From Paracyclopina nana (Eukaryota; Arthropoda; Copepoda; Cyclopoida; Cyclopettidae), in the NCBI GenBank assembly GCA_019096065.1, contig JAGUCH010000001.1, positions 5,766,001 to 5,830,000 on the forward strand: a stretch of DNA of 64,000 nt, given 5' to 3'. Below, one piece after another: positions 1 through 46,660 of the stretch. The notes under the pieces are model-generated. The model did no database searches. It saw only the letters and a program-made list of their open reading frames with translations, and was not told the DNA's origin. The translations under genes were made by a program, and so were the position numbers. Within the stretch, counting starts at the first letter, position 1, and each line of letters opens with the position of its first letter.

Positions 1-3000
1 CTGCCCTTAAACGGCTCTGTCACTAACTGCGCTCTCTCATCTTTGTTTTGCTCTGAAGACTTTATGTACAAGTAATGGCCACTTGGGCCAAACGTGGTGT
101 GATCAAAAGGAGGGCCGGTATTGAGGCTATTGCTTCCAGATCCTCGATTCCATCTGAAATTTGAGTACTCTTCGTTGTGCTTGAAAATTCCTAATGGGTT
201 GAAATCGTGCTCAAATTTGTCAATAAGAAGGTTCTGGCACTGCTCAAGGTCTTCGTCGGAGTTGTCACCACATTGGTCGGTCAAATCACAAAGTTGGTCA
301 TTTGGTACACACGCTTTAGAAGTGAGGCAGTGAAAGAATCCATCAGCGCACTGATCTTCAGCTGGCTTTTGGCCGCAATCGACGAATCCTAAATCATCAA
401 CGGCAACTCCGGCCTCAAAAGCGACCTTCGGCTCTAAAGCAATCTGTACGCTGAACGAGCTTTTTTGCCGACCAATCCCATTTTCAGACTTTCGCCAGGC
501 TCCTATTCCAGGGGAGTCAGGATAGAGCTGATCAAGCGGCGAGACTTTTTGTCCTTCCTCGGTAAGCAAGATCGGCGTCAAATACCCATTTTCTCCAATG
601 TTACCCGCGATATAGTACCAAAAAACAAATTTGCAGTCAGCAAACGAATTTCTGTACTGCGGACTCTGCATAGAGGCCAATTGATGAGAATGATCCGGAT
701 TGTCCTCCTGAGAATTCAGAATGAATACTAGGCCACCAGATGTTGAATTGGAGGGATCAACAATCGGTCCATGCCGATCCGCTTCGCCCATGTTGATCAG
801 ATCTTGGACTATACAAAAGGCTTAAACTTAGCAGCAGTTGTTTACTCCACTGCATTCCTACCTTTGAGTACTGTGAAGTCCAAGTCGTCAATTGTAGGCT
901 CGGTCCACAAGCAATTGTTGAGGCTATGGCAATCATCGAACAAGTAATAGGCAGGGCATTCTGCCTCGTCATCCTCAGCAGGACAGTCGGGCACAAAATC
1001 ACAAATTTTTTCCTATTAGTTATTGAGAAGCAATAGGTTAATCTTTTCTCTACCGGTTACCTGGGCATCCCAGGTTGGTTGAAATTCAGGGATTTTTGGT
1101 TACTGTTAGAGAAAAATGAATCCCTACCACCCTCAGCAAAAGTTAGACCCCGCGAAAAATCCCTGATCGGCCGGGAAAAATTTGAGAACATTGCACATTT
1201 TTCATTTCCTCGCTGCGCTCGGATGAAAAATAGTTGCTCGGTTCTCAAATTTTTCCCGACCTCTCAGGGATTTTTCTTGGGGTCTAACTTTTGGTGAGGG
1301 GGTAGGGAACTATTATTGTGCGTGACAAGTATTGGGACACTCTCCCCTCAATAATGTGATTCCCACGCTTGCTACATTTGACGAGGAAGCTTTCTAGTAA
1401 ATTAACAAATATCGCCCAATTATTAGTACAAACAGTTAAATCGGCAGATAATCTCACTGAACAGAGCGATAAAGCAAATATTGAAGGTAATCACTACTAA
1501 TCACCTTGCTGATGCAACTTCCGTCGCGACATCGGAATTCCATATCGCCACACTGCGTTGAGGTGGTTGAGGCAGTCGTCGAGGAAGTCGTTTCAGGATC
1601 AACCACAAACCTTGTTGAGCGAATGATTAACCTTGCAGATTACAGCATAACCACTGGGCATTATACCTGCACTTGGGAGTAAAGGACACATCATCGATGG
1701 CAATATCACCAGGAGGCATTGGGTCCATTTGAGTATACTCAGCTTCGAAAACTAACTGGTATTGCTTGTCCTTCATGTCAATTGCCATATCAACTCTGTT
1801 CCATACGTTGAAGGCATTCTCGTAATATTCCCAGACTATCATGCTTTCACTGCCATCATGAGGCCTAAAAAAGCAGCTAAGGTTTAGAGAGTGGCAAGTC
1901 TTTAAGTACCGCTAAAATACCTGATCGAAAGCCTCAGTGAAGCAATTTGTAGCTCCCTCAGGAGGTGGAAATAAAAACGAATTCGGCACTCATCATCAGC
2001 ATTTTCTGGTGGCTCCATCATTGAGCTGACCAAGCTCGATTTAACCACATTAGGTTCTGCCCCATTTTTCATTTCTAACACCATGTAATGGCCTCTATTA
2101 GAGAAAGTCGTGTGGTCGAAATTCGGGGCTCTTGCTTTTAATAATTGATCTCCGGACCCCCGCACCCAATTATCGGCCTGATTTGGATCGTTATGGAAAA
2201 ACTTTTCTTCTTCATCTTCAAATGTTTCCTGAAAGTAGCCTTGGTCTCTAGCGTCACAAAGTTCCACAGCCTCGTCGGAGTTGTCTCCGCAATCGTTAGA
2301 GAGGTCGCACAATTGGTCGGGGAAAATGCACACCTGAAATTGTTGAGATTGCCACAGATTTTGGGATGCTACTTTCAAGAGAAAAAAAAGGGAAAAAGTC
2401 TCTCGAAGCTAAGAATAATTTGTCTGATAGGATGGTACACGGAAGCATTAACTATGCATGAGATAGTCGTAACAGGCCAGTCATTCTCTAATTGGTTTTA
2501 GATTAACCAAATAATTACCTTATTGCTGCAGTGCCATTGGTTGGTGGGGCAGCTATCTTGGGACCTAGGTAGACCACATTCCAAAAAAGCGAGATCGTCA
2601 ATCGCGATACCAGCATCATAAGTCTTGCTTGGCTCTTTTTTAGCAATAACCTTGAGACAAAATGCGGAAATTTAATTAAAAATACCAGGGAGCTCGGAAA
2701 GGAAAACAAGGAGAAGGACGTTACACAGAATAAGTGGGCTGTTGCTGGATTCCGTGAATAAGGCCCACAATATCACCGCATTAAAAGCGCCACGCGCAAT
2801 AAAAAGAACGGACAATTTAATTGGGCCGAACGGGTGCCGCTTTAATGGGCCATGGAAAACAACAGCCTATACGCATTGGATTTTTCTGAGGCAAGCTTTT
2901 TCAGCATTTCACGTTTCCTCTTATACCTTGAAAACTGGCTCCCGTCGTCCAAGCTGAATTTTTCGTTGGCGCCATTCAGTATCGCCATGGGTATACAAGT

Positions 3001-3732
3001 AATCGAGAGGCATCTCCTCAGAATCAATGTGAATAGCCAGCTCTAAAAATATAGTACATCTATTGAAAAAAAATCGAATTTCATCTGCATTGGACCTCTT
3101 TTACCCAATGCCGAATGACTTCCGTCAGCATCATCCCCGGTATTGCCATTGATGTAATAAAAGAAGTCAAGGATACACACAACCGAAGAGTCTCTGTAAG
3201 CTGGGCTCATGATTCGGCCATTTTGATTGATGTAATCAGCTTCATTGCCAAGCTTTCCGAATAAGTACAGGAAATGAGAGCCCCCTAAGTAGGGGCCATG
3301 GCCGCTCGTGTAGGAGTCATTATCTAGAACAATATATAAAGCCATTAGCATCAATTCACTGGAACAATTTGCGGAGCAAATTCGCGATAAAATTGCATAT
3401 AATATATATGTACCTGACGCAACTATCCAGTCCAACTCATCAGTGGGCTCTTCGTTCCAATAGCACAGGGATTCCTTGCAACTTTCAAACAAGTACTGAA
3501 CAGGGCAGAGCTCTTCATCTTCTCCTTCGCTGCAGTCGTTCCAAAAGTCGCACACTTTGTCTTCACTAATGCAAGTATGGTCATGTGTGCACTCAAACTC
3601 GTCGGGTTGGCAGTACACCGGCTCGGCAAAAGGTGGCTCAGTGGGGCAATCTCCGAAGTCGACTGCAAAATCCAAATCATCCAAGGAAACGAAGCCATCA
3701 CTAGAATCTCCCCTGATTGCGACGAATATAAT
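1..3732 (-). other. Alternating LDLa and MAM domains (LDLa1-4, MAM15-18)
   Basis: Exons (minus): 3414-3732, 3105-3323, 2927-3042, 2519-2650, 1921-2333, 1667-1864, 1505-1610, 862-1012, 1-808 (open at the edge). LDLa1 lies in 3414-3732. LDLa2 is split by a phase-0 intron between 2519-2650 and 1921-2333. LDLa3 is split the same way between 1505-1610 and 862-1012. LDLa4 is in 1-808. Calcium-cage ends such as D-C-G-D-N-S-D-E are clear in LDLa2, and LDLa4 has the close variant Q-C-G-D-N-S-D-E. LDLa1 and LDLa3 are more divergent (E-G-E-D-E-E and P-A-E-D-D-E). The last exon is at least 808 nt and encodes the end of MAM17, LDLa4 and the start of MAM18. The 1505/1667 junction (a 56-nt intron with an AAG acceptor) is the least certain. 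Confidence 0.82.
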
Positions 3733-6700
3733 CTGTATTCGAACAGATTAATGTTAATCAAAAGAAAACTGTGAATGGGTTGCAAAGAGCCTTCAGTTAC
3801 CCAATAGCTGACGTCAGGCTTAATAGGCAGCACTTTTACTTGACCCACATGCCAGCCATTTTCAAGCTCAGCAGGATTTTCTATTTTCCAAATGTCTCGT
3901 GCTTGCCCAATCTCGTCTATAACTTGTATAGTGAAACTTCTTATGGCGGAATTCGTATGCTGAAAAAAGAAGAACAGAACTGCAAAAACGCAACTTAAAT
4001 TATGCTAACAAAACGCACCTCCATACTATAGTAAAATCTGAGGCACTCAATTGCATGGTCCTGAGGATTCATCAAAGGGCTCTTCAATTCAGCTGCTGCG
4101 CTAGGCTCCACCGTGTCATCAGCATCTACGTTAAGAAAGTAACGAACTTTGTACCCGTTGTGATCATCCATGGGTCCATGCTCTTGGTTATCGATAATGT
4201 CCTGCATTCGCGAAAAAATGGCGCACGAACATCACATAAATGAAAACTAGTGCAACTTCATAAATAGCGTACTTGTCCCCTCAGACGTTTCCATTTGAAG
4301 TTGCTCGGAGCTGAAGGGTCCCAGCCACAAAAGTCCGTCTCAAAGTTACAGAGTACATCTAAGAAATAAAAACTCCATTTCAGAAGGAGACCAAAAATGA
4401 GCAAAAAGTTTTACTCGGTGGAGGCTCAGTCGTCGTCGGTGCGGGAGGAGCTGCATTGGGAGGCTCTATCGCACAATCAGTCTGGTCATGATAAAATAGG
4501 AAATCATCTACACCACCCCAGCCATGTGTACCATCGCCTCTTTCCACTTTTATCACTACCTAGGAGAGAAAAATGTCGTATATAGTACGGCTATGCGCAG
4601 GCCTAAAAGGATGATTAAAATTCCCAATTTGGTTGGAGTGGAGGAGGGCCCCAGTTTGAGTGCTTAAAATTCAAAGAAGTTGGCAAAGCGAGCTAAGAGT
4701 GCATTTTAAAATACTTCGTAAGGCTCCTCAGATTCCAAAGCCACCCTGCCAAATTCCCAACCAGTGAATGAGGCGCTTTCTAATTTCCAAACGTCAATGT
4801 ATTCATCGGTTGCGGTGAGATGCTTGGAAATTGACAAATACTTGATTCCATCTTCCTGCAACGACGATGGTTCTTTTTAGAATGATAACAGCTCGTAGCC
4901 GTATGTCAAAATTCTTTACGTTTAGAGTGAAGACAAAGTGAAAGCACTGTTGCACAACTTCCGAAAAAGTTGAACTTCTAAGCGTTGTAACTGATCCGCT
5001 TTGATGTCCATATTGTGCAAAAGCTATCACAAAATAGCCTGAAAAGAGAGAGAGAGAGAGGAAGAACAGCAATTCGAAAAAGCCCCATTGACCTGATTGG
5101 TTTCCTCACCAACCAAGGTAATCAAATCATATAATGTAACATGCATTCATAATCCCGAGCCCTGCTATCGATTTTTGATTAAATCTATTCATATGATTGA
5201 GCAGCTCGCCACAAAGTTATGGGCTGGCATATCACTCATGCTACCTGACATATAGTCTACTCTGCTAGAAGCATAACTTTTAACAACAAGCTGCTGCATT
5301 AAAATACTCACCATGAGTGTCTCCAAAGTGGTCGTACTGCGGCCCACCTATAGAGGCTGATTGGTTGGCATTGTATCTATAAAAGTTAAAGTTGGGATCA
5401 TCAAGGTGCGATTGCGCGCTCCATCCACAAAAGTCGTGCTGAAAGATACAGTCTCCATCTGACGGTTCATGGGGAACGGCTTCTGGCGGTATAATGTCAC
5501 AATTTGCCTCATGCGGTACAAGCTCATAGTCATCAAAGGCAGCCCAGCCAACTAAGAAAGATAGGTTAAAATAGGGACGTAGATGGCAAACAGAGATTTA
5601 ATTCACTATCGTTGTCACCGCGGCGAGCAGAGAGAACGAGGCGAAACTTTTCTTCAGAATTGATCTTCACTTGGGCCTGCTCCCATAGGCCAATATGTTG
5701 ATTTCTCATTTGCCAAATGGGCACTACATCGGTAGAATCGCCTAGCAGAATGTCGATTGAAAGGAGGTCGATTCCTCCGAAAGGCTGCACAAAAAGAGTA
5801 GGATTTTATAGGCGTAGAATGTGCACCACCACGTACGTACTACGCTATAGTGTATACCATATGAAACGGCTAATGTATTCTGACAGCACCTACGCCGAAA
5901 AGGTATAAGAAGAAATTCTTTTACACCGGCAGCTTTGCTTTGCGCTCCTCGCACATGCAAAGCCTTTGGCGAGAAGATGGAATTAAAATGGTCTGCTTAC
6001 ATAGTAATCATAAAAGAACTTCAAACAATAGGGGCCTTCGCCGCCGTAGAAAGGGCTTTCCATGACAGCTACGTCATTTTCCTGAGCATCTGATGGCAGA
6101 GCAACCACAAAATAACCTGATGACGCATGATTGATAATTTTTTTGTTAGATCTAATGAAGCAAGCCATAACGAACCATCTTTCGCGTGCAAATGGTCAGT
6201 CTGAGGCCCCTGGATGCTCTCGGCTTGAAGTTGGTCTCCGGTTGTCCTACGCAAGTTGAAATTCGAGTCTCTTAGGGTCCAGCCACAAAGGCTATTTTGG
6301 AAGTCACAAGCAGTTGGAGGCGAAGAAGTGGTGGTCACTGGCGGTGGAGGTTTGGCATCTTCGGGAAAGATTTCACACTCGACATTGCCCTCAATGGTGA
6401 AATCGTCGACGGCGACGTAACCAGAGGCCTGCCCATTCCTCACAGCTTTGATTACAATTTTGAAGGGATTCGGAATGTTGATGTACACTCTGCCTTGCTC
6501 CCAAGAGTTTAATCGGATGTCAGAAAAGCTCCAAATCAGCACCTGGCTGCCTTCATTTTCCTGCATTTCGATAAATATTTGCAAAGCTTTGATCCCCTCG
6601 TGAGGCTGCGTAAAAAAAGAACGACGATGATGATGCATTGCACAGCTATGTTCGTGCCATGAATAAGAGTGCGCTTAATTACCCGGACATCAAAGTAGAA

Positions 6701-9700
6701 ATGGAAGCAGAAGCCTCCATGGTTCTCAATTAAAGGGCTGAGCATGATGGCTGCTTCACCGTCCAAATGATCATTTTTGGCGGAAGCGAAAATGAAGTAG
6801 CCTATTCGACGATAAAAGGGTTCCATTAGACGTTGGTGGATATTTCGGCGATACAGTAAATCTTACGCTGAGCATTATCGACATGGTCACTGGGAGGCCC
6901 TTCGATTTCTTCGTGGTTCAAAATTTCCCCAGTTGTTCGCTCAAACTCGAATGGAAAGTCTGGTGGGGAAGGCTGCAGAGTCCAGCCGCACAAGTCGGGA
7001 TTTTCAAAGTCGCATTCGTGCCACTCAGAGTGATGAGTTGTAGTGGTCGATATTGGAGTTGTCGATTCAACTGGCTTGGCCTGAACGGGGATTATGTCAC
7101 AATCTGTGTCCATGCTGTAGGTGAATTCGTCAATGGCAACAATTCCAGTCTCTCCAGGACTCCTCACCACCTCCACAACCATCTGTAGCAAACGACATCA
7201 AATTACTTTTTACTCGCATGACCCAGGGAAAGCACTAACCCTGAACTCGTAATCGATCACTAATTTAAATTGCCCAAACACCCAATCGTCAACAATTTTT
7301 TCACTGAGCACCCACAAGGGCTGCCTGAAGGCGTCCATGGCCTCAGTGAAGATGCCAATCGACTTGAAGCCATCGCCAGGCTGGAAAAAGAAAACCTTTT
7401 TTGACATGTCCATCCAATTATGCTCACTCAACCTTTTACCTGGAACCAATATTGGAAGTTGACGCAAACACTCATTGGGAGGCTCATTGGGCTGACAAAT
7501 CCAGCTATAGCTCCTTCTTTGTGAGCAAACAAGGCATTGGAATATAAAAAGTATCCTAATGAAAAAAACAAGCTCTTTTATGTGCTCGCGAGCACCAAAA
7601 TAAGACACACAAATCATTATTTACCGGCTCCGTTGCCATTATGATCAGTGACTGGACCTCCCAGCTGGCTTTCCATGAGCAGTTGACCAGTTGTGCGATT
7701 CCAATAAAACATGTTATCGTCTATCACCCCTCCCAATTCCCAGCCACACAGATCATCTTCGAAATTGCAGTTTAGCCAGTGAGATGGGACCGGAGTAGTG
7801 ATAGTGGAGGTGCTACTAGTGGTGGTGGGAAACGCTTCTTTAGGCTCAAAGTCGCACGTATCGCTATTCAAAAATTCGAAATCGTCCACCGCTATGTAAG
7901 AATTGTCATTGCGGCCCTTTCTGGCAACGAGCGTGATCTGAAATGCCCTTCATGCACTAAATAGTCATCATATAAGACGCAATTTTACCCTGAATTTTGC
8001 CTCCTCCGTGTCATGTGACCTTATTTCGACACGAGCTTTCGTCCACTTTGGCTCTCCATCGTTCCCATAAGCATCATCCAAATTCCAAACAATTGAAGGG
8101 AAAGGCTCATCTTGGTCTAAATGAGTCACATGGACCGCCAGCGATTCTCCCTCCCCTTGAGGCTAGAATAAAATTGAAAAGGACAAAAATATAGGAGAGG
8201 AAATTTTATCATACTCCAAAGTAGAAGAAGAAACTGAAACATTCGACAGGATGCTCTCTCCCCAGAAATACTTGTGATTCCAGAAATGACTCAGCCCCGT
8301 CGATTGCCAAAGGTCCAGCTCTGTAATCGCTCGCTATCATGAAATATTTTGAACGTTCCTCGTTGTGGTCATTGGGCGGTCCAGGCACAGATTCGTTTTC
8401 GAGCAACTCAGCTGTGTCACGACTCCAAGAATAGTTCATAGTGCTTCTAACCTCCCAGTCGCATAAATCGGCCTCGAAATCGCAGAGAAAGTCGGCTAAG
8501 GGGGCTTCTAATTAGTAACACAAACTTTATATCAAATTAATGCTTGCGTACGCTGTGGAGGCTCAGTGACTGTCGTAGTGGAAGCTGTGCTCGATGACGT
8601 AGGAAAGGCCTCTTTTGGCTCAAGGTCACAAGAGTCTGTGTTCACAAATTCTAGGTCATCCAACGCAACGAAGCTTTTCTCATTCGAGCCCCTCTTCGCG
8701 ATGAAAATTATCTGCAACGTGAGATTAATTATGGAGGAGGGCTTTCTTAAGCTCGCCCATTCAGATTTCTTTTACTTTATATGAGTCACTTTCAGAAAGT
8801 GCTCTGATCTCTACTCGTCCTTTCGTCCATTGACCTTTATGCAAAGAATCGTCAAGCAGCCAAATATCCTCCACAGCCGTCTCGCCGCCGGAATGAAAAA
8901 CTAATACTCTTAGCTCTTCGCCATGGCCATCCGGCTAAGAAAGAAAACAGTTAGTAATGAGAACATGGCACACATTCCTGTACTAATACCCCAAAGAAGA
9001 ACCAAAAATTGGCACAAACAATAGGATGGTCGAAGCCCATAAATTCGGGGGACAATATTTCCGTTTCGAGGCCAGGCGCAGTTGAGTCACCAGCTACAAA
9101 GTCACTTGCTATAATGTAGTAGGTATCTGAGTAGTCATTGTGGTCAGAAGGTGGACAAGGGACATGGTCAAACTCCAAGCCGTTCGAAGTTTCCCTAAAC
9201 CATTTGTACCGCTGTTGGTCATCACTTGTAACAACTTCCCATCCACAAAGATTTTCCTCAAAAGTACAATGTATGTCAGCTGGAAGGAGAACGAGTATTT
9301 CAGTCACAGTAATCTCCTCTGCTACGTAATGAAAAATTACGATTTGGCGGCTCAGTTGGAGTTGTCGGCGTGGTCGTTGTCGACGTAGTAGTAGTAGGCA
9401 CGGCCTCCCTCGGTTCGAATTCGCAAGTCGCAGTGTTCTTGAATTCAAATGAGTCCACTGCTATGAAGCTCTTGTCGTTGGAGCCCTTTTTGGCATAAAG
9501 CTCGACCTAATGGGAAGGGAAACGCTGTCTAATTCCTCTAAAAGCACCGAAGAGGATAAAGTAGTACAACCTTAAACTTGGCCCCCTCAACTTCATGGGA
9601 TCTAATTTCAATTCTGCCTTCGCTCCATCTAGGCTCAGCCTCGTGTCTATACGAATCGTCCAAAGACCAAACAATTTCAGGGAAAGGCTCGGCATCATCC

Positions 9701-12700
9701 AAGTGTGTCACATAAACTTGAAGAGACTCGCCTTGACCTTCAGGCTGAATAAAAAAGTGTGCAAGGGAATTAATGTTAGATGAGATAATCATCGACCGTA
9801 GATAGGAACTTGCATTCTTACCCCGAAATAGAACCAGAAGCTATAACATTCTACCGGATGTTCATGACCGAGGAAAATTGGTGATTCCAAGATGGTGAAC
9901 GAGTTCTCGGTAGCGGCAGACCCTAAGTGGTCACTCGCGATCATAAAATACTTGCTCTTGTCCTCGTGGTAATCATAGGGAGGGCAGGGTACCGAATTGC
10001 CTTCCAATTGCTCAGCTGTGCCGTGAAACCAATTGTACAATAAGTCGGGGTCTGTGGATCGTACTTTCCATTCGCACAAGCCATTCTCAAAGTCGCACAA
10101 AATATCAGCTACAGTAGTGGAAAAAACCTGGTAAGCACATATCCTTTTGGCGTAGTGAAGAAGCAGCAAGTTCAATTATTACGTGTTGGAGGCTCAGTAG
10201 GCGTCGGAGTAGATACTGTTGTTGATGTGGTTGTTGGCGCTGCTTCCTTTGGCAAGAATTCACACATGGCTTCATTCAATTTTACGAAAAGAAAGTCATC
10301 GAGCGCAGTATATCCGAACTCATTTCTTCCCCTGATTGCTTGCAATTCAATCTGAAATACATGTGATGCAATAAAGAGGAACCAATGGAATTGCAGAAAA
10401 AAGTACTCTGTATTCAAAGCCTTCATCTACTGATGCTTTTATTTCGATTTGGCCCTCGTGCCATTTCGGCTCGGAATCTTCTATGGAGTTTCTGTCAAAA
10501 TCCCACAAAAGAATTGTCTCGTCCTGGCCTATCCTTTGAATCACTCGCAATCTGTCACCATCGCCCTCTAACTGAAATTTTGTAAGCAATTTTTCATATC
10601 CATCATGGCAGATCGGAGATGAAGAAGTTTCTTACTCCAAAAAAGAACCAGAAGGAAAAGCAATTGACGGGATGCTCTGCGCCAATCAAGTAAGGCGAAA
10701 TAAGATCAGCTGTAGCCTCTGCTGGACTATCTGGTGGCAGCATGTTGCTTGCAATGGCAAATAACTTTTCTTTGCTGAACAGTGGATCATGCGGAGGTCC
10801 AGGAATGTCACTCTCCTGCAACCCGCTGGCATTTCTGCGTGAAAAAGCATACTTTGTTCCTTCCTCCTCCGCTGGCAAGTGTTCCCAATGGCAAAAGTCG
10901 ACCTCAAACGTGCAGCTAATCAGGGCTGAAATACGCATTTATGTAAATTAGGTGTGCTTTGTTTTAGTTTAAGGCAACCGAGACCTCCTGGTCCTTCAGT
11001 AGGGATTGGAGTGGTAGTCAAGGGAGTAGTCGAAGATGCAGGCGGCTCAGCTTCCTTCGGATTTATTTGGCAACTGTCGCTTTTAACGAACTCAAATTCA
11101 TCAATGGCTACAAATCCATGCTCAACTGAATTCCCTCTTCCAGCTAACACTCTAACCTGAAAGGAAGTATCCACCGATAAAAGCAAGGTGGTGATCTAAA
11201 AAAATTCTGATCGAGATAGAGAGGACCTTTCCATAAGGTAACAAAGTTTAGGTACTTTACCTTGAAATTGTGCACAGCATCAGGGGCGTGTAAAGCAACT
11301 TGACCTTGGATCCAGCCATTGCCCATATCCAAAATGTAACTGTCGGTTAGACTCCACACTATAACAGCCATTTCCGCTTCATCAAGTTTGTATACAGACA
11401 ACCAATTTCCATCACCATTTCTCTGGAATTTTTTTTCAAACTGAGGGAAACTTTTTCAGAGCTGAATAGCTCTAATTATCTTACTCCGAAATAAACCCAA
11501 AACCTCATGCACTCGACCGGATGCTCGCTAGCCAAGAAAATGGGAGATGTGATGCTGGTAGTGGCACCAGGCAACACATATTCTGACAGATAATTAGTTG
11601 TCATCAGGAAATGTGTATTCAAGTCCCCACTATGGTCGTAAGGAGGACCTTCAATGCTCAGCTCAGTAATTGATGATCCTGTCATTCTCTCCAAGGTAAA
11701 GTTCGAATTATCAGCCGACAGAGTCCATTCACAGATGTCAACCTCAAAGTCGCATTTTATGGAATCTAAAGAAGATTTCACTGACAACGAGGGCCATACA
11801 TGAATGCACAACCTTACCTCTATTGGGTTCTGTAACTGTAGTCGTAGACGAAATGGAAGACGATGTAGTGGTAGGTGTTGCTTGAGGTGGTGTCAGATCA
11901 CATGGCGAGTCGACGATTTGTTCTAAAATGAAGTCATCAATTGCAACGTAACCATTTTCATTCCTCCCTCTAATTGCTTGAACTTCAATCTGGAAAGGAA
12001 AAAAAACTATAATTAAGAGCATAAATCAAGAGAAAGGAAGCGCTCGTTTTACCCTGTACTCGAAGCTTTCAATATCTTGTGCGATTATTTCGATTTGTCC
12101 TTGATACCATTTAACTTCAGCATCAACAAAGCTCTTTTCCAATTCCCACAAAACAATGGGGCTTTCCGAGCCTTTAATCCGTTGTAGTACTCGAAGTCTG
12201 TCATTATCTCCATTGCCCTAAAAATGAGAAGCTTTCCTAAGTTGGCAAACATTTATGGCTGTGCCCACTCACCCCGAAAAAAAACCAGAATTTGAAGCAC
12301 TCTTTGTGATGTTCAGCTCCAACGATGTAAGGAGAAATAAGGTCAGCAGTGGAATCTTCTGGGCCATCAGATGGCAACATATTGCTAGCAATGACAAATA
12401 TTTTATCTCTCAGATCTAGATGGTCATTTGGTGGGCCTGGAATAGCCATGCCTTCAAGATCAATCGAGCTGTTTCTGAACCACGAATATTGTGGAGCGGC
12501 TGGAACGTGCTCCCAAAGGCAGAAGTCCTCCTCAAAAGTGCAGGCAATGAAGGCTATTTAAATGGTGAAAATGTAGAGACGCATAAGCGTGAAAACATTA
12601 GCTAATTTACGTCTGGGAGGCTCAGTCGGAATAGTTGATGTAGTAATCAGAGGCTGAGATGAGGACGTAGAAGGCATAGCCTCAGGCGGGGCAAAAGAGC

Positions 12701-14990
12701 ACTGGTCTGTTTCCAGAAATTGAAACCGGTCTAAAGCAATGGAGCCTTTTGTCAAAGAAGCTCCCAGCCTGGCCACAAAACTGACCTATAATAATGAGCA
12801 AGCATCACGTGGCTTGTAAAGCATAATAAACCAACTTTATGAGATCATAGCAAATCGGCTAAGCGATCTTAAAGCAGAAATTACTTTGTAGTTAGAGTCT
12901 TGGTTCGGAGCAGAAATTCCGACTTGAGCTTCATACCATTTTTCCTCACGATCAATAACGTACGTATCATCCAATGTCCAAATAACTGTGTTGGTTCCAT
13001 TTTCTTTAAGAATCAGATCAACCCTATTTCCATCCCCATTCTTCTGCAATTAATTTTCTTAACTGGTATCTAAAATGATTTCACTCATTCCCACCTGGAA
13101 GTAAAACCAAAACGAGAAGCACTCATTAGGGTGATCTTTCCCCAGGAAAGTGGGCGAAGTTATTCCAGCTTTTGCCGACGGCAATACATCATGAGCCATA
13201 AAGTTGGTGGTCAAAATATAAAATTTGTCCACTTGATTGTCTAGATCATGCGGGGGCCCATTATAGTTGTTCTCATCGGACAATGTACCCGTCGTTCTGT
13301 ACCAATAATAATGCGAATTATCATACCACATATCCCATTTACAATAGGCAGAAGTAGCCTGATTGACTTCGAAGTCGCATTGAATGAAGTCTACGATGGA
13401 ATTATGGCTCAGAAGTGTGATAGAAGAAATTATCAATTTTTTACCATCAGGTGGCTCAGTGACAGAAGTTGTTGGCAAAGTGCTACCCGATGTAGACGTT
13501 GGAGGTGGTGACGTTGGAGGTGGTGTCGTTGGTGTTGCCTCTCCTGGCTTAATATCGCATTCACTATAGACCTCCAAAAATAAGGTATCGTCAATCGCCA
13601 AAAAGCCATCCTGGCCTTGTCCCCTAATTGCACGGAATTTGATCTAAGGAAAGGGAATTTATAGATCTGCGTGGATATCGTGAAAATACTATTATATATA
13701 CCATATATTCATGGCCTTCCTCATCTTTGGACAAGAGCTGTATTCTTCCCTCTTGCCATGATGATTGAGTCCCATGTGACCAGTCGTATGGTAGGCTCCA
13801 TAAAGTTTCTTCAATATCTGAAGGTTTGGATACCATAAGCAAATCTAGCCTCTCAATTCCAGGTGCTTCCTGCAAATGCAACACAGTTTAAAATCGCTCA
13901 TACAATAATAATCATAAAGTGATGTACTTGAAAGTTGAACCAAAATTGAAAACATTCCGAGACATGCTGCTTGCCGTCAAAAAGGCCACTTTTAAGTTCA
14001 ACAAATTCTCGGATCCCGTCAGTGACTAGACTTGAAGTCAAAAATACGAAAAAGTCATCCTTCGAGCCCAAATGGGACAGTTCTGGACCGGTTACTGAAC
14101 TGTCTTCCAAGCTTGAAGAGCTTTGTCGTTGGAATGAAAATCCCGACTCTTCATTTGAGGCAAATGTTGTCCAGCCACAATAGCCATCTTGAAACTCGCA
14201 CTTTATGATATCTGAAGAAAGTTTACAGCAATTAATAATGCAGTTTAAGTGGATAGGCAATACCATCTGGAGGCTCCGTAGGCGAGACTGTAGTAGAGGT
14301 AGTTTTTGTAGTGGCCCCCTCTGTACATGAGTTTAAATCTGTGAATGGCTTGTTAATGACCTCGTCAACGGCTATAACACCATTTTCAGTCAGTCCCGCT
14401 GTTGTTGCAGCTTGAATAGATAAGGTTTCATTGGGCTCTAATACGAGTGACACAGGCCAAAAAGACCACTCTTGAGCTTTGAATTCAGAGGAGAATATCA
14501 CATCTCCAGTCTGATTGAAGACCAATAAAGCCACCGTTTGAAATGCTCCACTCAGCCAAACTCGAGTGTTGAAGCACCTGTTCCGATTTTCAAAAGGCGC
14601 TCCCTTCCAGTCAATTCTCGTGCCACGAATTATTCCCACATCGTTGGCAGGAACAATACTTATTAGGAATTTATCTGCAGAATATTTAAATAACATAGGT
14701 CAATAATTTAAAAAAGGAAAAATCGAGCTACTGTTGACATCTCCGTCGAATCCACTTTCAGGAAGATTGTCTATGTGTTCGTCCAACTCCAAAGTTGACT
14801 TGATTTCCCAATTCAATGTCACTGGAGAGTATCCGCAAAAATCTTCGGCATTCTCAAAGTGGCATTCTTCTCTGTCCTCGTCTCTAGCACTCGCTATAAC
14901 GGAATAAAATCATTAAATGCCCCGATGAGCCGAGACCCCTTTACCATAATGTAGTAAAGCAAAGCAGCAAAGAACCGCCTTGAAACTCAT
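1..14990 (-). CDS. Giant MAM / LDL-receptor class A multidomain protein (C-terminus beyond the window)
   Basis: Fifty exons can be chained on the minus strand with matching phases and no stop codons. They encode about 3,575 residues, and the frame is still open at position 1. The start at 14990 gives a signal peptide (MSFKAVLCCFALLHYG), so the product is secreted or type I membrane. I count 18 MAM domains (adhesive beta-sandwich modules with repeated C-x-F/W-E...C-x-W and G-P-P-x-D-H motifs; the last is cut by the window edge), separated by Thr/Pro-rich, probably O-glycosylated linkers. Four LDLa modules (about 35 residues, six Cys, acidic calcium cage) come in among the last four MAM domains. 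Known relatives are MALRD1 and MAM-domain proteins of apical epithelial membranes. Its promoter region is shared with the divergent hexosaminidase. Family assignment is very secure; exon borders are likely right but were read by eye. Function is inferred only as adhesion, scaffolding or endocytosis at an apical surface. Confidence 0.93.
1121..1308. repeat. 188-bp palindromic miniature element inside an intron
   Basis: The two halves are near-perfect inverted copies. They begin TCCCTACC and share the blocks AAAAGTTAGACCCC and GGGAAAAATTTGAGAA. The central loop is TTCCTCGCTGCGCTCGG. It sits in the roughly 490-nt intron that splits LDLa3 (1013-1504), by far the longest intron in this part of the gene. 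It looks like a MITE or foldback element. I see no clear target-site duplication. Confidence 0.75.
3414..7937 (-). other. MAM10-MAM14 with altered exon layout
   Basis: Coding exons (minus): 7625-7937, 7440-7555, 7240-7380, 6867-7182, 6683-6801, 6176-6605, 6001-6116, 5607-5784, 5312-5551, 4920-5038, 4715-4855, 4415-4559, 4273-4358, 4019-4201, 3801-3959, 3414-3732. In MAM10-13 the intron between the linker and the next MAM is mostly missing, so one exon carries the end of one MAM and the start of the next. A new phase-1 intron lies inside the domain, just before a G-Y-F/L motif. In 6176-6605 the B and C portions are fused as well. MAM14 has an extra phase-0 intron between 4273-4358 and 4019-4201. 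Confidence 0.85.
7625..14211 (-). other. MAM2-MAM9: eight tandem copies of a three-exon MAM module
   Basis: Exon triplets A/B/C on the minus strand: MAM2 13928-14211, 13702-13869, 13445-13643; MAM3 13095-13390, 12885-13043, 12611-12785; MAM4 12273-12553, 12053-12217, 11818-11989; MAM5 11485-11765, 11261-11422, 10985-11156; MAM6 10636-10925, 10407-10571, 10183-10351; MAM7 9822-10108, 9571-9744, 9341-9506; MAM8 8990-9279, 8776-8934, 8552-8711; MAM9 8215-8507, 7989-8162 and the first part of 7625-7937. In every copy A is 281-296 nt (phase 1 to 0), B 159-174 nt (0 to 0) and C about 160-199 nt (0 to 1). C ends in a Thr/Pro linker, usually closing with T-E-P-P. The A exon ends in a hydrophobic F-W-F/Y-x-F stretch. 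The linker of MAM2 contains a small internal P-P-T repeat. Confidence 0.88.
14264..14990 (-). other. MAM/LDLa gene, exons 1-3: signal peptide and MAM1
   Basis: Coding exons are 14945-14990, 14732-14893 and 14264-14674 (minus strand). Exon 1 holds only the signal peptide. MAM1 begins at C-H-F-E-N in exon 2 and is completed by the unusually long exon 3, which corresponds to two exons in the later repeats. It ends in a Thr/Ser linker closing with T-E-P-P-D. Introns are 51-57 nt. Every junction is phase 1, the class typical of shuffled extracellular modules. Confidence 0.85.
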
Positions 14991-37171: not shown

Positions 37172-40100
37172 ATGTATCATTGCACAATGAATCTTGTGAC
37201 AGACTGCCACAAAAGGTAAGTCGGTGCCCTCAAAGCGGTCGTCGACTGAAAAAAGAAAATCGCCTCAATTATTCAGTCTTGACTTGAGCTTTGTGCTTTC
37301 ATTTGCCAGAATCCTCGCAGCAGAATGTTTTATCATCTTGTTCCTGTCTACTTCTCTCTTTTTCGTGCTTCCTAACAGCTGCATTACAACATTAATGTCC
37401 ACTTTTCCACAGGGACACCGTCATCACCCCCGAGGAGGCCGAGCAGCTCATGTGCCCTCCATCGCCACAGAAGCATTGCCACGCCCGCCGAGGCCACTCC
37501 CCAGCTGCATCCTCGCTGGACGCCGACCAACAGTCACAGCAGCCCCAAAGGAGTAAATTGACATTGCAACGCATGAACAGCTTCCACGTGGGCCCCGTCA
37601 GGCTGCCACACCCAGTGAGGATGCCAAACGGTCGACTGGTGAATAGAAATAGCAATAGCCGCGCCTCCAGTGAGGACTGCAGCCAGCCGAGCTACCCAAA
37701 CCACCGGATTCTGGACACCAAGGGTCGGAGGTCGCTCTCTCTCAAGCACGGCCGGACTCTGGATGACATCACAACGACGTCGGAAGGTGCTAATCAACCG
37801 CCGCAACACCCCACTGTGACTAAAGTGACTACGGTGCCCCTATACAGACCCAAAAGGGGCTCAGATTCGAGGATGTCATCTCTGGACAGCTGTCATATTG
37901 CTATTGAGGAGATGGCAGGAAAGGCCTCTTTTCGCGGTACAATAAACAGAGTTTGGCACACGCTAGGTGATTCAAGCTAAAATACTCCCCACACTTTGGC
38001 TCGAGGCTTAGTGGCGACCCTCATAGTCAAAATCTCAACTTGTAGGCCCCCATTCATCTGTAATACCATTATGGATGCATAGTATACTAATTGGGGAGGC
38101 AGCTAAATAAAAAGTCCCTTTCCCGTTATAGTTTGAGAGAATTGTCGAGGACCTCAAGGTCACGCCAACTTTCTTAGGAAGTTGCAATTAAGATAGCTTT
38201 GTATTAGAACGAGGGAACGTCAAAGGGGCATTTTCAAAATTAGCTTACCTTACGTCGTGCTTTTCCCGTTAGGCCACAACAAGTCGCTACCGACTGTCTC
38301 CGACTCCACTCCTGGGCTGTCGACTGGCATGAGAAACGCCAAATTCAGCATTCGATCGCATGGATCCTTGCCAGAGGGCATGGTGCCATCCTCAACAAAT
38401 GACAGGGATGACATTTCTCTTTATGGCACGCCAAAAGAAGAAATGGGTCCAAATGCGTCGGGATTCGATGATGCAGATGCCAGTAAGCCTGGTTGGGTGC
38501 GCAATCAACTGCAAAATATCTTCCAGCCCACGGACAACAAGTTGGCCATGAAGTTGTTCGGGTCGAAGAAGGCCCTCATTCAGGAGAGAGTGAGGCAAAA
38601 AGCGGCTGGCCACTGGATCATCCACCCTTGCTCCAGTTTTAGGTAGGATATTCCAGATTTATTTCCTTTCCCTCCTTTTTATTGGCCTACTTTTGCAACA
38701 AACTTCTGCGGCTCGGATTTTGGTTATGCTTCACAACGTAAGAAAGCTGAACATCTCGCGTGACTAGAGCCAAACAATGAAAAGCCTGCCCCCTCCAAAA
38801 ATGTTCGCATAAACTTTGGAGGCTGTATCCAAGAGATGATGAAAGGATGAAAGTTTTGCTTAATTAATGCTAAGCGTCATAAACACAAGCTGCTCCTAGA
38901 ATAAAATTATAGAATTCGATACGTAATAGCCAATCATCAACTCTACAGAGCTTTAAAAAATGATCACGAATGTTCAGAAAATGACAGAATTGAAATAAGA
39001 GGCTTTCAGGTTCTAAAATAGAAAATTAAAAGGTTCTTTGTAACTGGTGCCTACTTACATGTCTATGCTTGATTGAGGCCGACAAAAGCAGCCAATTGCA
39101 ATTTCGGGCAATATTTCGGCGTGAAATATTTTTTAAGAAACAAGATAACCAAATAAGAAATCCTTTGGCACACTTTTGTAAGTTACGAATTACGATCCGC
39201 TGAGTTTGTTGACATCAAGCAGAACATGAAAGTTTCAAAAAATTTAAGGCGCTAAGATCTCAGGTAAATTGACCAAACTTAGTAATTGAAGCCCTTAAGC
39301 TTATTTTTTAACTTAGATTCTTAATAAGAAAAAAATAAGCAATAATTTGCAATTGATTTAAAGCATTTTGGATTTTTGTTGAATTTCACCAAGACTAAGA
39401 TCACTGGCCCGAGCTTTTTCGATGCAGTTCTGTCAGCTCGTCTTCATTGACAAAATATAGCGTAAACAAAAATATGGAGACTCGTGTGCCATTTTAATCT
39501 CAATTTTCGCTCATAGTACGTTATTGAATATGCTTCTAAAAGCTCTGACCATATTTACTAGCAAGACTGCATTCATGAAGAAGGTACCTTCGCCTCATTC
39601 AGAATATTCATTCATTTTTGGTTGCGTTACCAAGTCAACAGAGAGCTTATTTTTAATTACTTGCTAAACAGCATAAGGATCAGGTTGTATTGACATAAGT
39701 ATTTCCTTTAACCTCTACTTTTATCTTTTATCCATGATGGTTACGAGGCGAATTCTAATTGCTAATTACACTTGCTAGGTTCCTGGTCAAAGCCTGAAAC
39801 TTGTGCCCCAACATGGAAACCGCATTAGTCATTAGAGATTATCGAAAAAGTTTTACCTTTCAGGTTCTACTGGGATTTGTGCATGCTCCTCTTGTTGGTA
39901 GCCAATTTGATAATCCTCCCGGTGGCCATTTCCTTTTTTAATGATGACCTTTCTACCAGATGGATTGCCTTCAACTGTCTCTCGGACACTATCTTCCTGA
40001 TTGACATTGTTGTCAACTTTAGAACAGGTCAGCTGCTCCCATCGATTCTCCTTAATTGATTACAACATTATTGTGTACCCTGCAGGAATCATGCAACAAG

Positions 40101-43100
40101 ACAATAGCGAGCAAGTCATCATTGACCCAATGCTGATAGCGAAGCATTACATTCGAACCTGGTTCTTCCTGGATTTGCTCTCGTCAATTCCACTCGACTA
40201 TATCTTCCTGATTTTTAATGCTGGCAGTGATGTAAGTGGCTTACCTCGGGAGCTCAAAGATTCTCAATGTTTTGCTGACTGGATGCCTTTTTCCCATAGG
40301 AGTACGCAGAAAGCTTCCAGATCTTGCAAGCCGGTCGTGCCTTGCGTATCTTGAGATTGGCCAAGTTACTCAGCCTTGTTCGTCTGCTGAGATTATCCCG
40401 TTTGGTGCGATATGTCAGCCAGTGGGAGGAAGTGTATGTAAGTATCTTGAGCAAGTTAGCCAGTCCTGCCTTTTGATTACCATGCAACAACCAAAAATGT
40501 GTATTTAAAACAGCTACTAAACGGAGCTTGGAGAGTTTAGGACAATATTCTTCCAAACTTCAATTGACTTCTACTCGAAGCTTTTTTTTGCTTTCAACTG
40601 CTTCTTACGGCTGAGTTTTATTTTCAGTTCATTATGCTAACTTCATATAAGAAACAGCAACACTACAGCAGTCACGCAAACCTTCTAAAAAAGCTATTTA
40701 ACGTCTACTTTTTAAGTACGTGAGAGCAGGTTGCCCAAAAACTGGAGATGTGTGGATGAACTCGCAACTTTGTCATCAACTACCGCTTTTCATCTGTGTT
40801 TTCCTGAATTTTTCAAATGAACAACTTGGCAATTTTTGAAAGCTTGTTCAAAACCATTTCCTTACATTGACATTCGTGTGTGCTTTCTGTTCGACATATA
40901 CAACTAATCTAGATAGATTAGTAGTTGTGTATTGTAATTCACCGTTACCATGTGCTGTCTCTTACAAACCAATTTAGAAAATTATTAGGCATTCTGAACA
41001 GCTTTGCAAAGCGGTTCAACATCATTTTTTGCTTGAACTGCTACTGCTGCTGATAGCAAGGGATTAAGACACACTGCTCACGCATGACTGAGTAAGAGTT
41101 GCTCCACTAACATGCTGTTGGTTTTTGCAGCAGCTAGAAGTAGAACGACTATTTTTAGAGCCAATTTTTGTTTGCGAAGCAAGCCTTTCTCAAAATGTCT
41201 GCCACCACGCAAAAAGCCTAACAAGTAAAAGCAAGTTTAAGGAATGCAAGCTCTGTTTCATCTGCTAAAATCTATATTTTTGTGGTCGCAGTGATTTTAG
41301 AGCTTTGCTGCGCTTGCTATCATGCTTTATTTGACGGACTAGACCTAAATGGAAAAAGTACTAATGAAGTGTGTGTAGAGCTTTTATGAGCGCCACTCGT
41401 GTAATAGCAACAATAAATTACATCCACCGACGTGTTACATAAATGTGCCGTATCTCGTCATCACCTACTCTTTTTTCTAGATTTTACAAAACGCTCAAAA
41501 AAAGACACGTGAAAGACAGTCAAAAGAAGGATCATACAGCTCTCATGCCAACAGTTGGTTTTTCAAGGTAACATCGAGTACAGCAACAACACAAAAGGTT
41601 TAACATGACATCTTAGAAAAGACAAAAAGTTGGGACTCTTTTAGATGATGCTAGCTGTAGGATTCCTCGGAAATATAGCAATGTGATAATGGCCGATGCG
41701 AAGAGAGCCTTTATCACTGAATCAAGGTTTAGCAGTTAATTATGTCACTGACGTTTTAAAGCATTTTTGAAACTTTTGAATGGCTCTCGACATTTTTCGC
41801 TTTAGCTATCTTGTCATAGCTGTTATGTGTAGACGTTAATTCCAAAAATTGGACGAATTACGAGCCTTGGTAGGCTGGCACAGAAATAGCAATCAAGTTT
41901 CCCTGAAGGGCGTTCTCATATCGCATTTTAGTTTAACCAAAACTGATACTGGTTAGACCAAACTGACTTTAGTCCGTACATAAGTCAGCATTCTTGTAGT
42001 GTTTAGTTTAACCAGAATCAGTGTGGATTAACTAAAATCAGTTTTGGTTAGACCCAACTGCGATATGAGAACGCCCTTGAGAAAGCGCGACTCTTGTGCA
42101 CGTTACAACTGTCACTGAACTAGTTGATGTATTCGATTTCTTTGCCTCAACTTTGCGAATTTTGACTATGCCAGCGTAACGATTTGTCATAGACTCCTTG
42201 CTCTTTCTTCATCAAGGAAGGAGCGCTACACTCAATTCCTACTTTCCTAGTGGCAAAAACACGTTGTAAGAATGACCTTTTCCTTCTTGTCACTTCTGGT
42301 TTGCTGCCATAAAATAAGTTACTACAGGAGTTACGTATTTTTCTCTTCCTGTCAGCAATCTGTCAATTACATGCAGTTATAGAAAGTAGCTAGGAAAAAA
42401 CATAAATGTGACGACTACGTTTTGCAAAGTAATTGAATCTCCAGCTAATGCATAATAGTTTTTTCTCGACTTTCCACTGCTAGAGCACTGGTAGTATAAG
42501 AAGATGATGATTAGTTTACAAAACTGTTGGTTTTCCCATCTTTAACTGTCTGTAGGAGCACCAAACAAGGACAAAAAGTAGAATAGTTCTTAGAACTCGA
42601 TAATTTGATTTATCCTTTCGCAGTACAGTAGACACATATCATCACACTAACATGTATTCCTATGTTAAATGTGTTCAAACAATGTCGATGCATGTTTGTG
42701 CCTTGCTCGTGATTTGAAGGAGCGATTGCTATTCCTACTATTATCCGATTCCGCCCTGTTTTTTGTGTATCATCTAAAAACAACTAGCTCAAAAAAATAG
42801 TTTGGAGGAACGAAAGAATTCTTTGGCCTTGCTTGGAGTCTGGCTTTGTGCCAAAGTTGGCTCCTCGACTAAAAAGTAGGCTACAGTAATATCGTTGCTT
42901 TTTGTTAGCTTCAATGGGGCTCTTTTGTGTAAAAAGTACTATTCAAATGTTTTCTTTTCGCAAATGGCTTCAAAGAAAAAAAACCGCACGTAGCCTCGCT
43001 AACATCTATTCTTTTTCTCGCATAAAATAGGAACTGCTCAATTTTCAAGTCTATTTCTCAGGCGTTGCATGTGGCAATCAATTGCAAATTGCACGAAAGA

Positions 43101-46100
43101 AGGTCACGAGCTGGTTGCATTAGCGAACTTGGGTTTGGCAAGCAAGGTGTAGGCCGACCAATTCGTATGGCCATTCTGGTCGATGATTATACGTACTCTA
43201 TACATTGTGTTTACCTGTCGATGTACGATATTTCTACTCGAGTTTGTAATTACTTCATGTGTATTTTTCTCTCTTTCACTCTCCACACTCACTACTCCAC
43301 CATGACCCTACTACTACTACTTTGTGTGTCCTATTTACCGCGAACCTCAGTTCTTGAGCTCGTTGGGTGTGTTCATGCGGATCTTCAACTTGATCTGCAT
43401 CATGATGCTAATTGGACATTGGTCTGGCTGTCTCCAGTTTTTGGTGCCGATGCTCCAGGGATTTCCTTCCAACTCCTGGGTGGCCATCAATGAGCTCCAG
43501 GTAATGTTTTCCTTACAGTTTGCAGATTTTGCCAACGTTTTTGCCAACTTTCTCAACTTGATCTGCATAATGTCATTGTTGGCCCATTGGTCTGGATGCA
43601 TCCAGTTTCTTGTTCCTATGCTTAACGGCTTCCCAGCCGACTCCTGGGTGGCCATTAATGAGCTTCAGGTAGTATATAACAGGATTCCGCTCGAATTAAG
43701 TGAGTTTTAAAAGTTGGCTACAAATTGTCTCTCAAGTTTGGCCGCAACTTCTTTTGAAAGCACCTCAAGGAGAAGAAGAGTGCGAACAGCTATAGGTAGA
43801 GAGCAGCTGAGGTGAAAAAGGGAATTGCCTCAAGAATGGGAGAAAGTGCACTATACCCTCAAACTAGCAGCCATTCTGCATAAGTTTGCCCCACAATTTT
43901 CAGCCTCGAGCCTGCAATTAATCCGCATAGTTAATGATTGGGCCTTTGATGGCCGAGATCATTAAATGGCAGCAGAGCGCGTGTTTGCAGTCCCACATCA
44001 TCTTCTGCAACGACCTCAGAGGCAAAGCATGATAAATAGTTTTCTATTCATGCAGCAGGCAGAGCCAGCTTTGATTGCACTGCTACTGCCATTACCGCAG
44101 TGATATCAAACTTTCCTCTTGAGTCATGGCTTTATGATTCGGTGTAGCATTACAAATTGTTACGAGACCAGAAACTAGTCACAGCCCTGCAGTTGCCATG
44201 GTTTCAATGGCTCTTCTTTGTTCAACTTTTCTTTGGCTATATACATTGTGCGAACTTGCGGCCTAGGACGAGGAGGAGTGGAAAGTTGCAAAAGCCAGCT
44301 AACAAGAGTCGTTTTCCCATGTCTGATGTAGGAGTCTCATTGGGTCGAGCAATACTCATGGGCCTTATTCAAAGCAATGTCTCACATGCTGTGCATTGGA
44401 TACGGCCGGTTTCCGCCCCAAAGCCTGACAGACATGTGGCTTACAATGCTGTCCATGATCAGTGGTGCTACCTGCTACGCAATGTTCCTCGGACATGCCA
44501 CTAACCTCATCCAGAGCCTGGACTCTTCGAGGCGGCAATACAGAGAAAAGGTAAAATCGCACCATAAAAGGAGGGTTTTCTCATTAGAGCGCTGGCTTTC
44601 TAACTATGTGCTGCAATGTATCCATAGTGTACCGGCAGCTATTTTGGCTAAAACAAATTCTTTGCGGTGGTCTTTCTCTTGCAAAATCTAGCTCGCCCAC
44701 TTAAAAACCGAGTTCAATTTGCTCGCTGAAAACTTGATTGGATGATGTATTTTTCAAGACAAATAGCCGCGCCACTACCATTTGCTGTCAAAGTTGACGC
44801 GCAATGCAATTTGTGAAAGAAAAGTCCTCGGCGATGCAATTTTTTGCAAGCTCAATACTAGGAATAAAGGACAAGGCTGTGCAATCCATCTCACGGCAAT
44901 TTTTTCGCTGACATCCCACGAACAGAAGTACGTCGGCTAACTAACAAAATCACGCAGGTCAAGCAAGTTGAAGAATACATGGCGTACCGAAAACTGCCTC
45001 GGGATATGCGCACGAGGATTACGGAATACTTCGAGCACCGCTACCAGGGCAAGTTCTTCGACGAGGAGCAAATTCTGGGCGAGTTGTCAGAGAAACTCAA
45101 AGAAGTGAGAATCTTTTAGTGGCGTTCTCAAAAAGGAGCATACTTAGAAATGAGCTCTCCCATTGCAGGATGTGATAAACTACAACTGTCGCTCGCTGGT
45201 GGCAGCCGTACCCTTCTTCACAAATGCTGAGCCCGAGTTCGTGTCCAGCGTGGTCACTAAGCTGAAGTATGAAGTCTTTCAGCCAGGCAAGCACAACTTC
45301 CCTTTTTATGCGTTGCGGAGAGGATTAATTTTCCCTTTGCTTTGGCTCAGGAGACATCATCATAAAGGAGGGCACCATTGGGACAAAGATGTATTTCATC
45401 CAAGAAGGCATTGTTGACATTGTCATGTCTAATGGCGAGGTGGCGACGAGTTTGTCCGATGGTTCCTACTTTGGCGAGATCTGTTTGCTCACCAACGCGC
45501 GGCGGGTGGCCAGCGTCAGAGCGGAGACTTATTGCAATGTATTTTCGCTATCCGTAGACCACTTCAACGCAGTCCTTGACATGTATCCGGTAAGCAAAAA
45601 ATATAGCCAAGGCTGCGACCATTAAGCCCGCTATCAGACATAATAAGGAAGACCAGAGGAAGCAAGAGCTTTTACGTAATGACGACACTGCACATACTGT
45701 CACGAATTGTTGACGTTCCTTTCTCGATAATTGATTCTTGTCCAGGCGAAACTGCGATGAATTACCGTTTTTTAGCTGATGCGTCGCACAATGGAAAGCG
45801 TCGCCGCGGAGCGACTCAACAAGATCGGCATCAAGGACCACAAAATGGCCAACGCCTCGGCCTCGGACAACGAGAACACCTCGGCCTCTCCAGACCCGCA
45901 TGACGTCTCCGCCATTGTCTCCGCGCTGGCTCAGCAGCAATCAGATGCGGAGTCGAGCGACTCGGAGGACGAGGGCGGAGACAAGTCCGGGGGAGGGCGG
46001 GGCACTCACACCACCTCCGACCCCGGAAGCCTGCATCTCGCCAAAGACTTTTACAACGTGGGCAAGCTGCTGATCCAGACGACCACGATGCTTCCGCGGC

Positions 46101-46660
46101 CTCGCTCCGAGTCTTGCTTTTCCACCATGGACCCCGACCCCGGGGGGTCATCCGAGCAGGAGCAGCAGCAGCCCTCGCACAAGGGCAAGAAGTCGCCGAA
46201 GAGGGAGACGATGCTCCACCTGCCCCTGAACCCACTGAAGAAGTTGCAATCATCACTCCACAAATCAGAGACGAACCTGGAAGAGCAGCCGCCCCAGCAG
46301 CACCCCAAATCGCCCTTCTTGTCCCTCAAAACGCCGCCTGCCGTCCTCACCAAGCCGAGCTCGTCCCTGTACCCAGGCACAAAGAAGATCAAAAAGAGTG
46401 CTAGCACCACGACGCCGGCAGCCAACTTGCCACCTCCCCCGCCCCCGGGGACCCTGCCTGGATACTATGTACCCCGCCCGCCGGGCTCCAAACACCATCA
46501 TCATCACCACCACCACCACCATGGGAGTCAGCAGCCCCGAGGGACGCCCATTTCCCCCACCACAGCCTCCTCGCCCACCAAAAACTCACCACCCTCAGCC
46601 CTACCCCCTGCGACTGGGCCATCTGCTGCTATTAGCGCAAGCAAGAAGAGTAATAATTGA
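37172..46660 (+). CDS. Ih: Ih / HCN hyperpolarization-activated cyclic-nucleotide-gated channel, complete
   Basis: Exons 37172-37215, 37413-37966, 38273-38642, 39864-40027, 40086-40231, 40300-40437, then 43351-43500 or 43519-43668, 44332-44550, 44958-45104, 45169-45286, 45351-45589, 45776-46660. All phases match and give 1,057 residues. Visible parts: a Ser-rich N-terminus; the HCN domain (F-G-S-K-K-A...W-I-I-H-P); S1 from about 323; S4 about 438-464 with Arg or Lys every third residue and the HCN-type Ser break; pore C-I-G-Y-G about 543-547; C-linker exon 9; cyclic-nucleotide-binding domain in exons 10-12 with F-G-E-I-C-L-L and R-R-V-A-S-V-R-A. The long tail is rich in Pro and Ser and has ten consecutive His. 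It makes a tetrameric plasma-membrane pacemaker cation channel opened by hyperpolarization and modulated by cAMP. The start is the first ATG after an in-frame stop; a second in-frame ATG is at 37187. Confidence 0.95.
41907..42077. mobile_element. Family-B MITE in HCN intron 6, 3-bp TSD
   Basis: Both ends carry AGGGCGTTCTCATATCGCA as inverted repeats. TGA flanks directly at 41904-41906 and 42078-42080. The interior alternates AACCAAAACTGAT and TTAGTTTAACCA blocks in both orientations. It lies in the 2.9-kb intron ahead of the duplicated S5 exons. Confidence 0.88.
43351..43500 (+). CDS. Ih: HCN alternative exon 7a (end of S4-S5 linker, S5, turret), canonical version
   Basis: 50 codons, phase 0 at both ends, after a CGAACCTCAG acceptor. 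The start [14 protein letters not shown] matches the S4-S5/S5 sequence usual in HCN channels, and the end is S-W-V-A-I-N-E-L-Q. The donor GTAATG lies directly before an 18-nt spacer and exon 7b. Confidence 0.9.
43519..43668 (+). CDS. Ih: HCN alternative exon 7b, diverged duplicate of 7a
   Basis: It has the same length (150 nt), same phases, acceptor TTTTCCTTACAG and donor GTAGTA. 34 of 50 residues match 7a. The changes are concentrated in the first half ([12 protein letters not shown]), while the second half (H-W-S-G-C...S-W-V-A-I-N-E-L-Q) is nearly identical. There are no stops or frame errors, so it looks functional. Including both exons in one transcript would duplicate S5, so mutually exclusive use is expected. 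Confidence 0.88.
45287..45350 (+). other. Ih: GC-AG intron within the HCN cyclic-nucleotide-binding domain
   Basis: The border reads CAG-CCA-G followed by GCAAGC, with an acceptor TTGGCTCAG. Joining gives [11 protein letters not shown], exactly the expected binding-domain sequence, so a GC rather than a GT donor is used. The intron is 64 nt. Confidence 0.85.

Follow-up and report, generated by a model that had tools for sequence, protein, structure and literature searches.

A tandem pair of probably mutually exclusive S5 exons in the HCN channel gene of a copepod

The plus strand of the window, by which is meant the whole 64,000-nt stretch of Paracyclopina nana DNA analyzed here, carries an HCN (Ih) channel gene whose exons were delimited from reading frames and splice sites. 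The modelled part begins with the exon that encodes the HCN domain (Ion_trans_N; 38272..38642, 5' edge approximate), followed by an exon for S1 and S2 (39864..40027), an exon for S3 (40086..40231) and an exon for S4 and the start of the S4-S5 linker (40300..40437). Two adjacent exons, designated 7a (43351..43500) and 7b (43519..43668), then encode the same segment of the channel, namely the end of the S4-S5 linker, S5 and the turret, and are separated by an 18-nt spacer (43501..43518; gtaatgttttccttacag) that contains the 7a donor and the 7b acceptor. The pore, S6 and the start of the C-linker are encoded by the next exon (44332..44550), which like the S4 exon at 40300..40437 is common to both isoforms. 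The remainder of the gene consists of a C-linker exon (44958..45104), an exon spanning the C-linker and the start of the cyclic-nucleotide-binding domain (CNBD; 45169..45286), a CNBD exon (45351..45589) and the last coding exon modelled (45776..46660), which encodes the end of the CNBD and the C-terminal tail, with the stop codon at 46658-46660; all of these features lie on the plus strand. An earlier note on this sequence had described two adjacent 150-nt exons of identical phase covering the end of the S4-S5 linker, S5 and the turret, with flanking exons at 40300-40437 and 44332-44550; the pair proved exact to the base, and both flanking exons were located at those coordinates. Within the CNBD part of the gene, the intron at 45287-45350, immediately downstream of the exon ending at 45286, is of the GC-AG type (donor GCAAGC), and a GC-AG intron, of 55 nt, is also present in a myosin gene on contig C1 of the assembly. 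The C-terminal tail contains a run of ten histidine codons at 46493-46522.

Elsewhere in the window, open reading frames at 3046-3747 and 12240-12557 on the minus strand match MAM domains, the former also matching an LDL-receptor class A domain, and similar-looking open reading frames were seen by eye between them; the MAM-domain frames, spanning about 1-14700 on the minus strand, probably constitute one large multidomain gene. On the plus strand, an exon-like open reading frame at 16870-17172 matches GH20 beta-hexosaminidase.

With either 7a or 7b in place, the modelled part of the HCN gene (from 38272) reads as one continuous frame of 858 residues and a stop. A 582-aa part of each isoform scores above cut-off for PF08412, PF00520 and PF00027 (the HCN N-terminal domain, the six-TM Ion_trans domain and the CNBD, respectively), and the 210-aa segment from S4 to the C-linker of both isoforms matches HCN4 with an E-value of about 1e-94. 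Searched individually, each exon finds the S5/turret of HCN4 as its best match in the PDB (7a, E 1.3e-14; 7b, E 6.9e-13), so that the assignment to an HCN gene made in the earlier note is borne out by the best PDB match and by all three HCN Pfam domains. A search of the organism's own assembly (92 Mb) with the S5 query returned two matches, which are 7a and 7b themselves, and the pore exon returned one; within the limits of this S5 and pore-exon search the gene appears to be single-copy. The best candidates for a second HCN gene were scored, and neither query yielded one. When ten exon regions of the gene were compared with the window by tblastn, no exon pair other than 7a and 7b came to light, the cross-match between these two being the only convincing one and all other non-self matches having E-values of 0.035 or weaker. 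The pore exon had no match in viral and prokaryotic contigs, as expected of an animal gene.

Exons 7a and 7b are each 150 nt long, in phase 0 and open, with AG directly 5' and GT directly 3' of each. They share 34/50 residues, a count given in the earlier note and reproduced on recomputation, along with 97/150 bases; when the 7b peptide was shuffled 20,000 times, no shuffle gave more than 15 matches, as against the 34 observed. That the exon pair itself is real is near certain. An assembly artefact in the form of a misjoined duplicate was considered and is unlikely, as the DNA of the two copies is just 65% identical. The 16 residue differences are concentrated toward the end that couples the voltage sensor to the gate, as the earlier note had also recognized: nine of them fall among residues 1-12 (hypergeometric P 0.0006, with the 12-residue cut picked after looking at the data), and 12 within the first 25 (P 0.016).

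The 53 base differences are distributed over codon positions 1, 2 and 3 as 16, 9 and 28. Over the whole exon pS is 0.81, based on 31 synonymous sites, and pN is 0.23; for codons 13-50 the values are 0.67 and 0.13, and for codons 1-12 the pS estimate exceeds 1 and is unusable. At the 34 common residues, codon use is the same in 18 cases and different in 16. When 7a was evolved neutrally in simulations, the frame stayed intact with at least 34 identities in 0.4% of 4,000 runs at a divergence of 0.3 substitutions per site, and in 0/4,000 runs at each of 0.5, 0.8 and 1.2. A trend suggestive of gene conversion at the 3' end (synonymous differences 2/8 in the last nine codons and 14/22 elsewhere) was not significant (Fisher P 0.10). 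Compared with HCN1 residues 290-336, 7a is identical at 26/47 positions and 7b at 25/47, and each retains different HCN1-like residues. Because the two are about equally close to HCN1, neither resembles a decaying copy, and their divergence looks symmetric and constrained, with no sign of decay.

These data bear on the idea that 7b is defunct or decaying, left unused in a gene that yields the 7a channel alone. Exon 7b does lack the arginine that is conserved at the position of HCN1 R297, a residue whose loss by mutation makes mammalian HCN2 leaky, and its acceptor has no full match to the branch-point consensus at normal spacing. However, its frame is open and its splice sites are intact, the retention of 34/50 residues at such high synonymous divergence would be unexpected without selection, and it has kept the HCN1-like residues D290, A292, L308 and D328 that 7a has lost. 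Decay of 7b thus appears highly improbable, and the reading preferred here, which we consider probable, is that the S5 exon of a single HCN (Ih) gene was duplicated in tandem long ago and that both copies have been maintained for mutually exclusive use.

The 18-nt gap between the exons (GTAATGTTTTCCTTACAG), which went unremarked in the earlier note, has the form GT..AG and is in frame and free of stop codons. The other introns common to both isoforms of the HCN gene (seven measured) range from 58 to 1221 nt, and an intron in a GH7 gene of the same genome measures 49 nt. Among 32 introns in myosin genes, estimated from the profile coordinates of adjacent myosin-domain matches (45/84 rows used), the smallest was 52 nt, 17/32 were between 40 and 90 nt and none was below 40 nt, with the proviso that a very small intron might hide inside a myosin match and go unseen by this estimate. 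The myosin introns with the smallest raw gaps between match ends (19 and -1 nt) were read out as 55 and 53 nt; the former had been estimated as 64 nt, and the latter, counted by eye, as 53 nt. A distance of ~50 nt is the proposed minimum between a donor and a branch point in an account that cites the tropomyosin case (PMC7969005). Set against this threshold and the introns measured, an 18-nt spacer would make splicing of 7a to 7b, and with it double inclusion by normal splicing, very unlikely. Mutual exclusion, which the earlier note had called probable, is now strongly suggested by the spacer, on the strength of the DNA sequence. Exclusion matters here: the exon length of 150 nt is divisible by three, and a product containing both exons would not be removed by frameshift.

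The likely basis of this exclusion is steric crowding. With no more than 18 nt between the exons, U1 bound to the donor of 7a and U2/U2AF bound to the acceptor of 7b would compete for overlapping RNA, and the branch point used by 7b would have to sit within the spacer or at some point upstream of it, whether in exon 7a or beyond; splicing of 7a to 7b would then be impossible, and each transcript would carry one of the two exons. In the last 60 nt before 7b, the best branch-point candidates are 5-mers matching yUnAy at 4/5 positions, and thus weak consensus matches, at 43504, 43490 and 43472, the first of which falls inside the 7a donor and the other two inside exon 7a. The arrangement is similar to that described for the homologous exon pairs of alpha-tropomyosin, alpha-actinin and OGDH, which are exclusive because the short distance from the donor to the following branch point leaves no room for both halves of the spliceosome (PMC7969005), and we infer the same here. 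For OGDH, the reported distance from donor to branch point is 25-41 nt, in an intron that is itself longer (PMC7969005), whereas in the present gene the spacer measures 18 nt in its entirety and 7b probably draws on a branch point at exon 7a or within it. Potential steric interference has been listed for 57 human MXE clusters (9%) (PMC5740500). If exclusion is indeed steric in the copepod gene, its spacer would be an extreme instance: a donor, a branch site and an acceptor would all be packed into or around 18 bases.

Exclusion could alternatively be enforced not by spacing but by mechanisms like those of Dscam, namely docking RNA structures or splicing regulators. Something must regulate the choice between the exons, and competing RNA structures have been described for other exon clusters (PMC6071210, PMC8042237), yet the local fold is no better than that of shuffled sequences (z -0.71, with 26/100 shuffles folding at least as well) and spacing alone would already be enough for two exons. 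Exclusion by such means is therefore considered distinctly unlikely, and steric crowding remains the favored explanation. A steric block does not, on the other hand, prevent retention of the spacer, which would produce an in-frame composite exon of 318 nt (7a-VMFSLQ-7b) with normal outer splice sites, from which reading continues to the normal stop; the resulting subunit would have two S5 segments and would probably be non-functional or dominant-negative. The absence of a stop codon in the spacer is what makes this reading feasible, but at 42% GC a stop codon is absent from 55% of randomly drawn 18-nt sequences of the form GT..AG, so that openness of the spacer is no evidence of design. In addition, the extra membrane pass would be expected to flip the pore, and a functional composite would need no internal donor and acceptor, yet both exist. 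We give the composite exon very little weight relative to mutually exclusive use of 7a and 7b.

A choice between the two exons would exchange the interface between voltage sensor and gate. Residue 10 of the exon is placed by phmmer alignments at the position of HCN1 R297, which from the numbering we take to be R339 of HCN2, an equivalence that fits the description of R297-D401 and R339-D443 as the same bridge. This residue is Arg in 7a (codon 43378-43380) and Asn in 7b (codon 43546-43548). Residue 3 of 7b is Asp (43525-43527) at the position of HCN1 D290, matching the Asp of HCN4; 7a has no Asp at the D290 position, with Ser (43357-43359) lying opposite in the ungapped alignment of 7a and 7b. 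Neither the Arg/Asn difference nor the 7b Asp was mentioned in the earlier note. Relative to HCN4, the S4-S5 linker lacks two residues, and the resulting gap adjoins the D290 position but is placed differently for the two exons; alignment of the 7a isoform to HCN4 puts this two-residue gap at the D290 position itself. As counted on the alignments, the equivalents of N300 and M305 are retained in both 7a and 7b, and those of D401, K412, H392, W281 and E282 in the exons common to both isoforms: W281 and E282 in the S4 exon, D401 (HCN2 D443) at 44521-44523 in the pore exon and K412 at 44961-44963 in the C-linker exon.

The R297-D401/R339-D443 salt bridge is described as stabilizing the closed state (PMC11189445, PMC9085832). 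The HCN2 mutant R339E is reported to have a minimum open probability of 43%, amounting to a leak (PMC11050684), with the qualification that the mutant data at the arginine site concern Glu and the residue in 7b is Asn. Reviews attribute constitutive conductance or a higher minimal open probability to mutations of Y331 and R339 (PMC3406610, PMC3439648). The HCN1 D290-K412 contact, in turn, forms with opening and promotes opening in simulations (PMC10317503). By these correspondences, a 7a channel would retain the closed-state salt bridge and would be without the D290-K412 opening contact, and a 7b channel would have lost the closed-state lock through its Asn and retained the opening contact. 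Without the lock and with the opening contact, 7b is expected either to shut less completely than 7a or to open at a less negative voltage, a prediction that is offered tentatively. The proposal of the earlier note that the gene gives two gating variants would in this way gain specific residues, the equivalents of HCN1 R297 and D290, as a prediction from sequence.

A broader reading is that two opposing gating contacts are split between the isoforms, so that splicing would switch the channel between a tight, more hyperpolarized form and a leaky, easily opened one. This is more speculative and on balance rather unlikely, but if true it would represent a natural counterpart of the engineered R339 mutants of mammalian HCN2. 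Several results count against the simpler gating prediction as well as this reading. In the open state R297 is also described as contacting E282 and H392 and thereby stabilizing that state (PMC10317503), so that loss of the Arg could weaken opening as well as closing. The D290C/K412C double mutant showed an increased basal current, contrary to the simple expectation of its authors (PMC10317503), and HCN channels are reported to gate without an intact S4-S5 linker (PMC11050684). A swap of 7a for 7b that takes both the arginine and the aspartate with it would constitute a ready-made natural experiment on this interface.

Alternative splicing of arthropod Ih genes is already established, in Drosophila and in lobster. 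Gisselmann et al. (2005) reportedly described splice variants of Drosophila Ih (DMIH), and the title of Ouyang et al. (2007) states that the channel properties of spiny lobster PIIH are modified by alternative splicing. PIIH is thus an arthropod Ih gene with alternative splicing like the copepod gene, and DMIH resembles it as a single arthropod gene diversified in this manner. The same S5 exon pair may exist in flies, and it may well have been described already in flies or lobster; it was not found among the matches listed in searches of the literature on Ih/HCN splicing and exclusive exons, from which absence from print is not claimed. For DMIH, at least 12 splice isoforms are reported, all with S1-S3 in common (PMC3344876). 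With respect to the vertebrate channels HCN1-HCN4, the domain order, the S5/turret and the positions of R297-D401 and K412 align with the copepod gene, the shorter S4-S5 linker being a difference from HCN4. In vertebrates four HCN genes are present, whereas gating diversity in the copepod would apparently come from exon choice in one.

Several features of other genes in the assembly are also of note. A GH7 cellulase gene, in this case in an animal genome, is located at C2:4495636-4497216 and has at least one clear intron, the 49-nt intron noted above. Its best PDB match is 4xnn, followed by 4gwa, which we take to be the Daphnia and Limnoria enzymes. Taken by themselves, these matches hint at a crustacean, and the similarity of the HCN sequence to insect Ih points to an arthropod. 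Among the 84 myosin-head matches, 11, on assembly contigs C2, C3, C4 and C7, cover the domain in full, from position 1 or 2 through to 679, in a single frame with no stop, and nine of these 11 lie in open frames of more than 1,400 codons; a twelfth whole-domain match, on C5, contains one stop. The 11 stop-free matches look like many intronless copies of myosin heavy chain. Insects are described as having one muscle myosin gene with exclusive exons (PMC2257972). In the copepod, the intronless-looking myosin copies stand in contrast to the exon pair of the HCN gene.
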